This document shows positions 28,173 through 35,290 of a stretch of 49,545 nt of DNA, piece by piece. Positions within the stretch are counted from its first letter, which is position 1. Each line of letters begins with the position of its first letter. Origin of the DNA: an uncultured Hyphomicrobiaceae bacterium (GTDB taxonomy: Bacteria; Pseudomonadota; Alphaproteobacteria; Rhizobiales; CAMYJA01). The notes beneath the pieces are model-generated. The model searched no databases. It was not told the origin of the DNA and saw only the letters and a program-made list of their open reading frames with translations. The translations under genes were made by a program, and so were the position numbers. The DNA is taken from contig CAMYJA010000012.1 of the NCBI GenBank assembly GCA_947258705.1, positions 1 to 49,545 on the forward strand. Direction: 5' to 3'.

Positions 28173-28544
28173 TTTTGCCTCACGTGCTGATCGCCGTTAC
28201 ACGGCGGCACTCCGGCGGGGCGGGCCTAAGGCCCGGTATTTACTACTGAGGTTTGGTTCGGCTCAACCCACATGTTTATGCGGCACGGTTGGTGCCGGTT
28301 GAGAGGCGAGACTGCCTCGGGCTCTGTTTTGCCTCACGTGCTGCTCGCCGTTACACGGCGGCACTCCGGCGGGGCGGGCCTAAGGCCCGGCATCGACTAC
28401 AGCGGATATGTTCGGCTCAACCTATATGTTCATGCGGCACGGTTGGTGATGGCTGAGATGCCGGACTGCCTCGGATTCTGTTTTGCCTCACGTGCTGCTC
28501 GCTGTTACACGGCGGCACTCCGGCGGGGCGGGCCTAAGGCCCGG
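28173..28544. repeat. 154-bp tandem repeat with two-hairpin core (copies B, C, partial D)
   Basis: TTTTGCCTCACGTGC recurs at 28173, 28327 and 28481, an exact 154-base period; the third copy stops after about 64 bases. The first 64 bases of each are nearly identical and fold into hairpin 1 (GTGC-N4-CGCCGT-TAC-ACGGCG-GCAC) and hairpin 2 (CGGGCC-TAA-GGCCCG) joined by TCCGGCGGGG. The remaining 90 bases are more diverged. Copy D has one T-G wobble in hairpin 1. A further copy lies at 25514. Confidence 0.93.
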
Positions 28545-30362: not shown

Positions 30363-32258
30363 ATGAAAAAGACTGTTTACAGGGTTGTGATCTGGGCTCT
30401 TGCCGCCTTTGGCGCGGCGGCGGGAACACCCGCGCATTCGGGTGATATCACCTGGCGGGTGGACCATCCGTTCCGCTATTTGTCGAAGGCCCGGGATCTC
30501 GAATTGCACCGCTCGATTTTCCGCGGCCTTTCGGCTCAGGAAAGAGACAATCCGATCCTGAGCGCCGAACGCCGCCTTGGCCGACTTTATCCGCGCGGCT
30601 GGGCCGAGAAGGTTTTCACGAAGATCTGCAACGGCAGGTCAGCCGCTAATGGCGGCTGCGATCCGGCCCATAACATCGTTATGCCACGAGAGCATCGCGT
30701 GGTGGCCAATTATACCGGCACCGGCCCGGACGCGCGGTCGGGGCGTTGCAGCTGGCGTATCCGGGCGGTGCGCCGCAAAATGAAAAAATACGACAAGACG
30801 TTAACGGCAGCATGCGGGGTAGCGGTTGAATTCAAAGTTCCCTATCCGGGCGGCGTAAGCGTGAAGGTGTATCATGGAGGGAGGCCGGCCGGGCGCGTCC
30901 GGGCCAGCGACCGGGTCCGCGTCAAGGATATATTCGTTGTCGGGATGGGCGACTCGTTCGCATCCGGTGAGGGGAATCCCGATTCCCCCGTGACTTTCTC
31001 GCGCGAAAGGTCGGCGGTTTACGGCAAACTGCCCCAAGGCGCCATGCTTGCCGGCTATCCGGCCCGCGTCGGCGCCTGGCGTAAAATCGGCGATGCCGAA
31101 TTCGTCAAATCCAACGCGCGCTGGAGCAATCAGGCCTGCCACCGGTCGCTCTATTCGCATCAGTTCCGTACAGCCCTGCAACTCAGCATGGAGGAGCCGC
31201 ACCGGGCCGTGACCTATGCCGACTTCGCCTGCGCGGGGGCAGAAATAACGTACGGCCTGTTCCGGCTCGACAAGGGCAATGAATGGGCGCCCGAACGGCC
31301 CTCGCTTTCGCAATTGAGCGCCGTGGCCGATGCGCAATGCGGCACGCGGGGGGCGCCGGACCGCGATTACCCCCATGCCTATCATATGAAGCGTGTCCTG
31401 CCGGATCTCGAGGACATCGTATTGAAAAAATGCCCGAAGAAGCAGGCCCGGAAGATCGACCTTCTCCTGCTCTCGGTCGGCGGCAATGATGTCGGCTTCA
31501 CACGCCTCGTCGCCAATGCCGTGCTGGCGGACGAAACGATACTGAGACGCCTCGGCGGCTGGATGGGTCTCGTTTACGGCTCCGAGCAGGCCAATGGCGA
31601 TGTCAAAGAGCTGAAAACCCGCTACAAGGCGCTTAATCGGGCCATACACAATCTTCTTCACATTCCATGGTCGCAACCGGACCGGGTGATCCTTACGGCC
31701 TATCCCGTGCTTGCCCTTCTCGAGGACGGACGCTCGGTTTGTCCAGACAGCCGGGCGGGCATGAGCGTTCTGCCCGATTTTTCCCTGAATAATGAAAAGG
31801 CGCGCGATGGCGAGGTGCTGTCCGACCTTCTGCACGGCGAAATGCGCAAGGGGGCGCGCCGGCATGGCTGGAGCTTCGCCCACCGGCACCGCACGGTTTT
31901 CGCAGGGCACAGCATCTGTGCGGGATCGGACAATGGGGATCGGGATTTAGCGAACGACCTCAGAATCCCGAAATATGTAAACGGCCAATGGCATCCTTTC
32001 AACCCGGCCGACTATGAACCCTATGCGCCGCGCGCCCGCTGGTTCCGAACGCCGAACGACGCCTATCTCACGGGTCATTTTCACGTCAACCGCACGATTG
32101 CGCGCAAGCTCCTGAAAAACAAGAAGCTGAGATGGTTTCAACTGGTTCTGGCCAGCACTTATTCGGGCGCATTTCATCCGACCGCCGAAGGTCAGGCGGT
32201 CATCGCCGACGAGGTGACGCGGGTGGCGCGCAAGGTTCTCGATAAATACGGACAGTGA
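30363..32258 (+). CDS. Secreted SGNH/GDSL-family hydrolase
   Basis: This 631-residue protein has a signal peptide (about 1-26, ending AHSGD). It shows the SGNH blocks: block I VVGMGDSFASGEGNP with nucleophile Ser198, block III LSVGGNDVGF with Asn375, and block V FHPTAEGQAVI with His605. Family members are esterases or lipases acting on esters, lipids or acetylated glycans. The 170 residues before block I are an extra basic domain with Cys residues of unknown role, and the enzyme is about twice the usual GDSL length, with inserts between blocks. The GDSFASGEG form resembles actinobacterial secreted lipases. The substrate cannot be read from the sequence. Confidence 0.9.
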   Translation: MKKTVYRVVIWALAAFGAAAGTPAHSGDITWRVDHPFRYLSKARDLELHRSIFRGLSAQERDNPILSAERRLGRLYPRGWAEKVFTKICNGRSAANGGCDPAHNIVMPREHRVVANYTGTGPDARSGRCSWRIRAVRRKMKKYDKTLTAACGVAVEFKVPYPGGVSVKVYHGGRPAGRVRASDRVRVKDIFVVGMGDSFASGEGNPDSPVTFSRERSAVYGKLPQGAMLAGYPARVGAWRKIGDAEFVKSNARWSNQACHRSLYSHQFRTALQLSMEEPHRAVTYADFACAGAEITYGLFRLDKGNEWAPERPSLSQLSAVADAQCGTRGAPDRDYPHAYHMKRVLPDLEDIVLKKCPKKQARKIDLLLLSVGGNDVGFTRLVANAVLADETILRRLGGWMGLVYGSEQANGDVKELKTRYKALNRAIHNLLHIPWSQPDRVILTAYPVLALLEDGRSVCPDSRAGMSVLPDFSLNNEKARDGEVLSDLLHGEMRKGARRHGWSFAHRHRTVFAGHSICAGSDNGDRDLANDLRIPKYVNGQWHPFNPADYEPYAPRARWFRTPNDAYLTGHFHVNRTIARKLLKNKKLRWFQLVLASTYSGAFHPTAEGQAVIADEVTRVARKVLDKYGQ

Positions 32259-33094: not shown

Positions 33095-34519
33095 TCACTC
33101 CGCGGCGACGCGCCCGCCGGTCTCGGCCAGCCATGTAGTGAAATCCTCGAGAGCGCGGGCCGTGAGGGCCTTTTTGCGCGCGACTTTCCGCTCACCGCGC
33201 TTGAGGCGCTTGCCGTCCTTGCCATGGGTGGGGGCGTCGATGCCGGGGAAGAGGCCGAAATTCACATTCATCGGCTGGAAACTGTGCTTCAGCCCTTCCG
33301 CCTCGCCCGGTAGATGACCGCCGGTGATGTGGCCGAGAAGCGCGCCAAAAGCGGAGGTGACGGGCGGTGGGGTGATTTTCGCCCCCAGCCGGTCGGCGCC
33401 GGCAAAGCGTCCGGCCAGCAAGCCGATGGCGGAGGATTCCACATAGCCCTCGACGCCGGTGATCTGTCCGGCAAAGCGGAGCCGGGGTTCTGATTTGAGG
33501 CGCAGGGATGGGTCCAGCACGACGGGGCTGTTCAGGAAGGTGTTGCGGTGGAGCCCGCCAAGCCGCGCGAACACCGCCTTTTCCAGTCCGGGGATCATGT
33601 GGAACACATCCGATTGCACGCCATATTTCAATTTGGTTTGAAAGCCGACCATGTTCCAGAGCGTGCCCAGGGCGTTGTCCTGCCGGAGCTGCACCACGGC
33701 ATAGGGCTTGACGTCCGGGTTATGGGCATTGGTGAGGCCCATGGGCTTCATCGGCCCGTGCCGCAGCGTCTCGCGTCCACGCGCCGCCATTACCTCGATG
33801 GGCAGGCAGCCGTCGAAATAAGGCGTCGATTTTTCCCAGTCCTTGAATTCGGTCACATCGCCTGTAATCAGGGCGTCGATAAAATCATTATACTGTTTTT
33901 CGTCGAGCGGGCAGTTGATGTAGTCCGCGCCCGTTCCGCCCGGCCCAACCTTGTCGTAACGCGATTGCATCCAGACCTGGTCGAAATCAATGCTCTCCTT
34001 GTGCACAATGGGCGCGATGGCATCGAAAAAGGCGAGTTGCTCCTCGCCGGTGACCTCGAGAATGGCCGCGCTCAAGGCGTCCGAGGTGAGGGGGCCGGTG
34101 GCGATGACGACATTGTCCCAGCCGGGTGGCGGCAATCCTGCGATCTCGCCGCGCTCGATGGTTATCAGGGGATGGTTTTCGATGCGCGCGGTGACTTCGG
34201 CCGAGAAGCCGTGGCGGTCAACCGCCAGCGCGCTGCCTGCGGGCAGTTTATGGGCGTCAGCGGCGGACATGATGAGCGATCCCGCCCGGCGCATCTCCTC
34301 GTGCAGGAGCCCCACCGCATTGGTTTCCCAATCATCGGAGCGGAAGGAGTTGGAGCAGACGAGCTCAGCCAGACCGTCCGTCTGATGGGCTTCGGTTTCT
34401 CTCAGGGGGCGCATTTCATGGAGCACGACAGGGACGCCGGCCTTGGCCGCCGCCCAGGCCGCTTCGCAGCCCGCAAGGCCGCCGCCGATAATGTGTATTG
34501 GTTCAATCCGGTCAGTCAT
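33095..34519 (-). CDS. trmFO: tRNA (uracil-54-C5)-methyltransferase TrmFO
   Basis: TrmFO makes m5U54 in the T loop of tRNA using methylenetetrahydrofolate and FAD. This protein of about 474 residues has the FAD-binding start [20 protein letters not shown], the family segment [20 protein letters not shown], and [18 protein letters not shown]. TrmFO replaces TrmA in many alphaproteobacteria. The ATG at 34519 is preferred because family similarity begins there. The gene ends close to tRNA-Ser on the opposite strand, but no functional link is implied. Confidence 0.96.
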
Positions 34520-34619
34520 TTCATTGAAATGGGCGAAATAGCAGGGCGCGTCAATATCAATCCTGAGAGGCGGCATAAACGCCTTGATTTATGCGGCTCT
34601 GAGCCGTATCTACGGCGGT

Positions 34620-34712
34620 GGAGAGGTGGCCGAGTGGTCGAAGGCGCTCCCCTGCTAAGGGAGTAGGCGGTTTGTAGCTGTCTCGAGGGTTCGAATCCCT
34701 TCCTCTCCGCCA
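34620..34712 (+). tRNA. tRNA-Ser(GCT)
   Basis: A 93-base class II tRNA with long variable arm: acceptor GGAGAGG/CCTCTCC, anticodon stem CTCCC/GGGAG with loop CTGCTAA (anticodon GCT), variable arm around GCGGTTTGTAGCTGTC, T arm AGGGTTCGAATCCCT, discriminator G and encoded CCA. Its 3' end (from 34688) is the first copy of a 93-bp repeat that continues downstream. Confidence 0.97.
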
Positions 34713-34992
34713 GTTCTCACCACATGGCGAACCCTCGATTTGTTGGCTTTGCCGCCTGACCTGGCCGGTCCGGCGACGGTGGTTCGAATCCCTTCCTCTC
34801 CGCCAGTTCTCACCACATGGCGAACCCTCGATTTGTTCGCTTTGCCGCCTGACCTGGCCGGTCCGGCGACGGTGGTTCGAATCCCTTCCTCTCCGCCAGT
34901 CCTCACCGCATGGCGAACCCTCGATTTATTGGCTTTGCCGCCTGACCTGGCCGGTCCGGCGACGGTGGTTCGAATTTCTTCCTCTGCGCCAG
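34688..34992. repeat. 93-bp tandem repeats carrying the tRNA-Ser 3' end
   Basis: GGTTCGAATCCCTTCCTCTC (the T arm and acceptor strand of tRNA-Ser, through CCA) recurs at 34688, 34781, 34874 and 34967, an exact 93-base period. Each full unit is 25 bases of tRNA tail plus a 68-base spacer starting GTTCTCACCACATGG, and the spacers are nearly identical. The second and third tails are perfect; the last has changes (AATTTC, CTCTGCG) that would break the acceptor stem, and no spacer follows it. No tRNA 5' half accompanies the extra tails. Because 93 is divisible by 3, both strands have long open frames of 31-residue repeats; I do not call these genes. From 34993 to 35290 I see no gene. Confidence 0.96.
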
Positions 34993-35290
34993 AATTCCTG
35001 CCGATTTTGCCCTTTGCGCGACCGGACCGCCGCTGTCCGACGTCATTGCCGTGCGCGTCAACCGGATGCGGCGCGGGGCAAGCCGTCTATCTCAGACCTT
35101 GAACCGGTGCTTGCATTGACTATAGTATGGCGCGCGACAATAATAATGCCAAGAATGGCCGATAACGGCCCGGAATGACGGGCGCGACAGCCGGACCGGG
35201 GAACGGCGCTGCCGCTGCGGGACGGCCGAAGGCCAACGTCCTGAAATCCACAGGGAACATGGCAAGGGAACTTCGAGGGAGATATTCGAC

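Follow-up and report, generated by a model that had tools for sequence, protein, structure and literature searches.

Why should a tRNA gene be followed by several copies of its own 3' end? The question is raised by a tRNA-Ser(GCT) gene on contig CAMYJA010000012.1 (assembly GCA_947258705.1) of an uncultured Hyphomicrobiaceae bacterium; the whole stretch analysed, 49,545 nucleotides, is referred to as the window. On the 3' side of this gene stands an array of three 93-bp units, each closing with the last 25 bases of the tRNA (34688-34712). We examined the array together with a second locus of the same genome and with similar loci in public genomes (L numbers label loci and G numbers genomes; G000 is the window's genome), and found a common plan that is fitted to the host tRNA and is met again behind many tRNA genes. 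Our interpretation, held tentatively and at somewhat less than an even chance, is that a very small insertion element without genes of its own, with the T-loop of tRNA genes as its target, is present here in three tandem copies.

The serine tRNA array and a second locus of its genome

The original prediction had described the last 25 bases of tRNA-Ser as recurring three times at an exact period of 93, with the last tail decayed; both statements were confirmed, the copies matching at 25/25, 25/25 and 22/25 positions, with the three mismatches of the last in 34967-34991. Unit 2 is 99% and unit 3 94-95% identical to unit 1, and beyond the third copy there is no further array sequence. Tandem Repeats Finder scored the array at 561 (period 93, 96% matches), so that chance is no concern here. 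All three spacers hold CGAACCCTCGA, the reverse complement of tRNA bases 34683-34693 (nine-base exact matches in all three units; the eleven bases were computed for unit 1 and read by eye for units 2 and 3).

A search of the genome with the unit gave, apart from the array, a weak match 3' of the tRNA-Ser(TGA) gene on a different contig. At this second locus the tRNA is followed by a hairpin that resembles a terminator (by eye), by CGAACCCAC and by a further hairpin, after which the 25-base end of this tRNA is repeated without a change; at both loci, therefore, the spacer carries the reverse complement of the 5' strand of its own tRNA's T-stem. The inner part folds with z -3.6 at the tRNA-Ser(TGA) locus versus -0.3 in the window unit. 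Rfam gave 43 tRNA rows in the genome, one of them under the cut-off, and a downstream copy of the tail was seen at tRNA-Ser(GCT) and tRNA-Ser(TGA) only, among 44 ARAGORN rows scanned (some tRNAs appear twice, and a few have less than 500 bases downstream). A dispersed genomic palindrome was considered as the source of the linker-hairpin parts and rejected, their best other match having E 0.11 in the 265,016 bases searched (about one tenth of the genome, overlaps counted).

A plan shared behind many tRNA genes

GTDB representatives were scanned with a pattern of antisense plus copy, which yielded 105 stretches. Among the 82 loci tested (the window, L074 and L099-L178), 33 are preceded by a tRNA at no more than 120 bases; the other 49 were dropped, there being no upstream tRNA or the match lying inside a tRNA. 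Many of the pattern matches without an upstream tRNA come from Streptomyces, archaea and further taxa and are apparently due to chance or of another nature. The pattern leaves one base open among three, and this base fits the locus's own tRNA in 31 of the 33 loci; the two misfits are archaeal L108 and acidimicrobial L128, the latter with another, closer antisense that does fit its own tRNA (17 bases by eye). Summed over loci the extra complementarity was 96, whereas 10,000 swaps of tRNAs between loci averaged 41 and never exceeded 73. The antisense also fits its own tRNA by 10-14 bases at six places behind Gly-TCC, His, Arg-CCT, Asn, Arg-TCT and Ser-CGA genes; these were picked by hand, for likeness to the plan, from the matches of a looser pattern in element-bearing genomes, and six of six is a check of fit and not a rate. 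A tRNA-Thr gene (L181) with a TTCAA T-loop, which no pattern sought, likewise has its own antisense and a decayed copy.

Within 300 bases, a nine-base antisense occurs downstream of 51 of 174 tRNAs, mostly from pattern-picked loci, and upstream of 3 of the 174, the corresponding direct copies of the same nine bases numbering 8 and 1. It is not a general trait of tRNA trailers: no tRNA-Ser locus of the relatives L006-L034, which were obtained by tail similarity, is among the 51.

The set assembled in this way comprises 52 elements behind 14 tRNA anticodon types. It requires nine exact antisense bases and a copy, includes the window's two loci and the six hand-picked places but not the tRNA-Thr of L181, and fills 53 rows, since in L172 two tandem tRNA-Gly genes precede one element; most rows were pattern-picked, so that the search imposes part of the plan, including a nine-base antisense that ends at G57. 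From 5' to 3' the plan reads: tRNA, trailer, a 9-14 nt reverse complement of the tRNA's own T-stem, an AT-rich linker, usually a GC hairpin, and the copied tRNA end through to CCA. The antisense corresponds to host tRNA bases of about 44-57, and the copied end starts at about G52. The trailer measures 15-57 nt in 51/53 rows, its lower limit being sharp at 15; the antisense is 9-14 nt long in 52/53 rows and 18 in one; the linker has a median of 11 nt, and the hairpin stands a median of one base before the copy. G+C content is 36% in the first ten bases of the inner part and 74% in its last twenty, and the minimum free energy of the inner part has a mean z of -2.04 (below -1 in 39/53 rows). The antisense makes a longer run with its own tRNA than with the copy in 52/53 rows and an equal one in the remaining row, the mean pairing runs being 9.9 bases with the T-arm of the own tRNA and 6.9 with the copy. 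Identity of copy to tRNA on the 5' side of GGTTC is 70% at the adjoining base and 13% one base further, i.e., the fit drops just 5' of G51. First-unit periods are 81-133 bp, with two outliers, one of 232 and one of 213 that is an artefact, two tRNA genes standing there in tandem; with these two aside the insert, taken as the period less 25, is 56-108 bp. Because of this range of periods, the equality of period and tRNA length (93) in the window looks like a coincidence.

A second, unrelated palindrome interrupts the copied tRNA end in its acceptor part in L139, L181 and L271 (by eye). In the genome of L132 and L110 the copy behind tRNA-Ser(GGA) matches the tail of tRNA-Ser(TGA). The tRNA-Ser(CGA) of L103 (1852-1941) has a T-T mismatch in its T-stem, while both downstream copies have the pairing base (by eye), as if this tRNA now wears a foreign tail.

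Searches for the copy only, in which no antisense was demanded, found the pattern in 5 of 397 genomes of the order (the window's and four further ones) and in 3 of 385 genomes of the class (the window's, G518, which was new, and G524, where the match is two real tandem tRNAs and not an array). At least eight antisense bases are present in 5 of the 6 genomes with true arrays from these searches, or 4 of 5 without the window's; L093 has eight (by eye) and L097 of G056 has none. The strict antisense pattern occurred in 3 of 289 class genomes, the window's genome among them. In one genus with eight genomes, the element stands at tRNA-Ser in two, behind different isoacceptors. The distribution is thus sporadic, at about 1% or less of the sampled genomes, and since carriers are few and differ within one genus the elements are probably young. 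A looser pattern applied to 40 element-holding genomes gave further likely elements in several of them, among the matches listed. By record titles, the taxa of the 29 fitting named loci comprise 25 that we take to be alphaproteobacterial, two given only as Proteobacteria/Pseudomonadota, one Actinomycetes and one Marinimicrobia. The plan is found mostly in Alphaproteobacteria, and outside Proteobacteria it is met in L163 (Ruminococcaceae, tRNA-Gln) and L147 (Actinomycetes, tRNA-Ser); cultured carriers include Sphingomonas caeni, Falsiroseomonas bella and Ahrensia sp. R2A130. With the second locus, and with a set that public genomes raise to 52 elements in all, a one-off duplication, which the original prediction had kept in view, is not the case. 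Its proposal that the array arose independently of the E. coli tyrT arrangement is supported in that, among 40 relatives of the order, all from other families than the source genome's, no match passed base 60 of the 93-base query into the spacer. A different array was seen in a Rickettsiales metagenome-assembled genome (L122, 6165 onward, reverse strand), where the trailer behind tRNA-Ser(TGA) is repeated with diverged tRNA ends.

The elements seem undescribed: we found no paper describing them, as judged by titles and the openings of abstracts, and no Rfam family in the window and 18 loci. They might be functional RNAs like E. coli rtT, co-transcribed with the tRNA, whose antisense would pair with the T-arm or the copy and so tune tRNA maturation or decoy the processing enzymes. 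We regard this as improbable, and the release of a 68-93 base RNA and the RNase decoy suggested by the original prediction gained no support here. An annotated small RNA of E. coli, rttR, does have antisense, hairpin and copy; pairing is possible with either partner, as the mean runs given above indicate; and trailers of 15-20 nt are presumably too short for a terminator. Yet in the second locus and in L168 the tRNA and the antisense are separated by a hairpin and T run like those of a terminator (by eye), presence is sporadic even among the tRNA-Ser genes of one genus, the predicted fold of the whole array is modestly stable only (z -1.77), and Rfam gave no family besides tRNA above the gathering score in the window and 18 loci.

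Possible origins: insertion, template switching or integration scars

If the units are inserted, a unit would enter at the T-loop, probably through a cut near G57/A58 with GGTTCG as the overlap, and would bring or duplicate the 25-base tRNA end, leaving the tRNA intact and the old end shifted downstream. The antisense would pair with that strand of the T-arm which borders the cut on its 5' side, and antisense and hairpin together might position the enzyme in the manner of a guide. Extra units could arise by tandem insertion or unequal exchange, and either the host or another element would provide the enzyme in trans.

A repeat of the trailer after the copy was undetected at p <0.01 in 33/53 rows, and 27 of these 33 keep at least 22 identical copy bases (L172 is counted twice in both trailer counts). 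Site-specific insertion at the T-loop would be expected to leave this trace, unrepeated sequence enclosed by a near-perfect 25-base repeat whose end is CCA. A plain tandem duplication comprising the tRNA end and the trailer was rejected, as it fails for most of the 33 rows. In L096 the first six trailer bases recur after the copy.

Template switching during replication is the main rival and, in our estimate, an unlikely one. A strand stalled at the palindromic T-arm would make two U-turns and leave an antisense and then a forward duplicate, with no mobile element; tandem units would form afterwards, when a strand slips from the foot of the hairpin to the T-arm. Two strand switches do yield antisense and forward copy in this order, the fit of the copy falls off just 5' of G51, near the centre of the T-arm palindrome, the bases before the copy are often G, as expected from microhomology, and the trailer is repeated in 20/53 rows. 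It speaks against such copying that linker and hairpin geometry is much alike across lineages, that linker and hairpin are not tRNA sequence and in several cases are common to different tRNA loci of one genome, and that in 27 rows a near-perfect 25-base copy goes with no detected trailer repeat.

Trailers and inner parts are more alike within than between genomes (13 versus 1313 pairs, which are not independent; one-sided p 7e-5 and 1e-6, respectively). L154/L191, L103/L201 and L110/L132 are the sharing pairs, with L106/L198 weaker, while several within-genome pairs, that of the window and the second locus included, do not stand out. The shared parts of L154 and L191 are about 80% alike (by eye), and their antisense and tail differ where their tRNAs differ. 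Something thus seems to move, with the tRNA-fitting parts renewed or selected at each site.

Integration scars of phages or islands, i.e., the left and right sites of T-loop-type tyrosine integrases from between which the element has been lost, provide a further explanation, which we consider improbable. tRNA genes are insertion hot spots for integrative elements, and the direct repeat does span the T-loop to the tRNA 3' end. The original prediction held that the array is not an obvious attachment site. This stands insofar as no integrase gene adjoins it, the four genes for PF00589 tyrosine recombinases of the genome, which may include the housekeeping XerC/D, all being on other contigs; it needs qualifying insofar as a direct repeat of 25 bp, nearly perfect and spanning T-loop to CCA, encloses an insert with no detected repeat of its trailer in 27/53 rows, which is attachment-site-like. 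Elsewhere a tyrosine integrase gene lies directly behind the element of L208, on a viral contig, an integrase with an arm-binding domain lies near L117, and an AlpA-type regulator near L118. In L117 and L118, however, a tRNA 3' end precedes the element (by eye), and the island seems to have entered later and upstream, between the tRNA and an element already present. Among viral contigs the only relative of the L208 integrase was itself, such contigs supply just two of the 53 rows, and an antisense to the host tRNA with a hairpin at fixed spacing is not expected in known attachment sites.

Candidate enzymes of other kinds were also sought. An IS200/RAYT-type transposase was set aside as the agent, as Y1 transposases (PF01797) are lacking in G000 and occur in 14/44 element genomes versus 17/86 sampled class genomes (both sets include G000, and one organism apparently underlies G710 and G518). 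An IS110 bridge RNA was set aside as well, there being no IS110 DEDD recombinase (PF01548) in G000. Integron attC sites have an R box of GTTRRRY, which the GTTCGAA of the copy does not fit.

Several observations weigh against insertion. Both negative enzyme searches in G000 do so, as does the placing of its four tyrosine recombinases off the contigs of the array and of the second locus. The trailer recurs after the copy in 20/53 rows, as plain tandem duplication would give; among the 33 rows counted as lacking the repeat L133 (p 0.015), L272 (0.03) and L208 (0.05) are borderline; and the trailer of L181 returns after an interrupted copy and was thereby missed. The window's hairpin is weak, and trailer and inner part of the window and the second locus are no more alike than unrelated pairs. 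The L132 copy fits, better than the tRNA-Ser(GGA) it stands behind, the tRNA-Ser(TGA) of the same genome. No empty site was seen in the genus of eight genomes, where no other genome has flanks like those of the two tRNA-Ser genes with an element (by eye), although some of the other genomes share tRNA-Ser flanks among themselves (by eye). Finally, most rows were selected with a pattern into which some of the plan, such as the antisense edge at G57, is built; the open-base fit, the tRNA swaps and the copy-only searches are not imposed by the search pattern. Taken together, insertion at the T-loop fits most of the facts, with template switching as its main rival.

Since a similar, regularly built arrangement is met at numerous tRNAs of numerous lineages, its antisense varying with the host tRNA, the question of origin becomes testable by comparison of strains. 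Were insertion true, these would be remarkably small mobile elements that choose their target by base pairing; were template switching true, the arrays would be a record of the disturbance of replication by T-arm palindromes.

Surroundings of the array and known systems compared

Table 1. Positions of the array components and of the open frames that cross them in the window
Feature	Position	Strand	Remarks
tRNA-Ser(GCT) gene, CCA encoded	34620..34712	+	ARAGORN; Rfam RF00005, 59.1 bits
T-arm left half and T-loop start (TCGAGGGTTCG), reverse complement found in each unit	34683..34693	+	
Unit 1 trailer, 15 nt	34713..34727	+	
Unit 1 antisense to own tRNA (CGAACCCTCGA)	34728..34738	+	
Unit 1 linker and hairpin, stability not above shuffles (z -0.3)	34739..34780	+	
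Copy 1 of tRNA 3' end, G52 to CCA, 25/25	34781..34805	+	
Unit 2: trailer, antisense 34821-34831, linker and hairpin, copy 34874-34898 (25/25)	34806..34898	+	
Unit 3: trailer, antisense 34914-34924, linker and hairpin, decayed copy 34967-34991 (22/25)	34899..34991	+	
83-aa open frame across array	34655..34906	-	no protein family above cut-off; not considered a gene
120-aa open frame across array	34740..35102	+	no protein family above cut-off; not considered a gene

The array is flanked by trmFO on one side and by a gene for a BON/OmpA-type protein on the other. The trmFO gene (33095-34576, - strand) is divergent to the tRNA-Ser gene whose T-loop forms the repeat edge, and its product methylates U54 in the T-loop; their adjacency is probably a coincidence. 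Elsewhere in the window are a 154-bp tandem repeat (28173-28544; 2.4 copies, 90% matches) and a 631-aa frame (30363-32258, + strand) without an NCBIfam match, which contains GDSFASGEGN (by eye), reminiscent of a GDSL-type hydrolase motif.

The elements resemble those of T-loop tyrosine integrases in their direct repeat from T-loop to CCA and in leaving the tRNA intact, but differ in that the insert is 56-108 bp (the two outliers aside), is gene-less, and carries hairpin and antisense to its own tRNA. With the ends of IS200/IS605 and REP/RAYT elements they share the layout of guide, hairpin and cleavage site, the guide pairing just 5' of the presumed cut; their putative guide is 9-14 nt long whereas that of the known systems has about 4, and the genome has no Y1 transposase. 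The target loop of the IS110 bridge RNA is likewise built of the reverse complement of the left half of the target and a direct right half around a hairpin; here, in contrast, the genome has no IS110 recombinase, the right half continues to CCA, and there are no insertion-sequence ends.

A close likeness is also seen to the E. coli tyrT/tyrV repeats (rttR, tpr), to our knowledge so far a curiosity of a single locus, in which tandem units behind a tRNA each end with a tRNA 3' end cut in the T-loop. The original prediction had named this parallel, and it goes deeper than was claimed. In MG1655, three 178-bp units stand behind tyrV, each closing in AATCC...CCA and cut at A58, in the same T-loop; a small hairpin lies just before each copy (by eye), and all three units hold a 10-nt antisense, GGGGAAGGAT, complementary to the tRNA's ATCCTTCCCC (by eye and with no statistic). 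As in the elements described here, then, a hairpin precedes the copy and antisense to the tRNA lies inside the unit (by eye). The E. coli unit is longer, has several hairpins and is annotated as a named RNA. With regard to likeness to the small protein tpr, neither of the two open frames across the window's array matches a family above the cut-off, and the periods of the other elements are often not multiples of three; a coding role of the array seems unlikely.

The copy starts at A58 (19 nt) in E. coli versus G52 (25 nt) in the window, and the antisense is directed to the 3' side (3' strand of the T-stem and acceptor) in E. coli versus the 5' side in the window's family. This opposite-side antisense makes the original parallel stronger: the E. 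coli repeats use the other side of the T-loop, which suggests that one underlying process may be at work in both. It is possible, if doubtful on present evidence, that all these loci belong to one new class of gene-less mobile elements of about 80-130 bp that home by an antisense of the target T-arm and are refitted to each tRNA, of which E. coli rttR would be a distant, mirror-image member.
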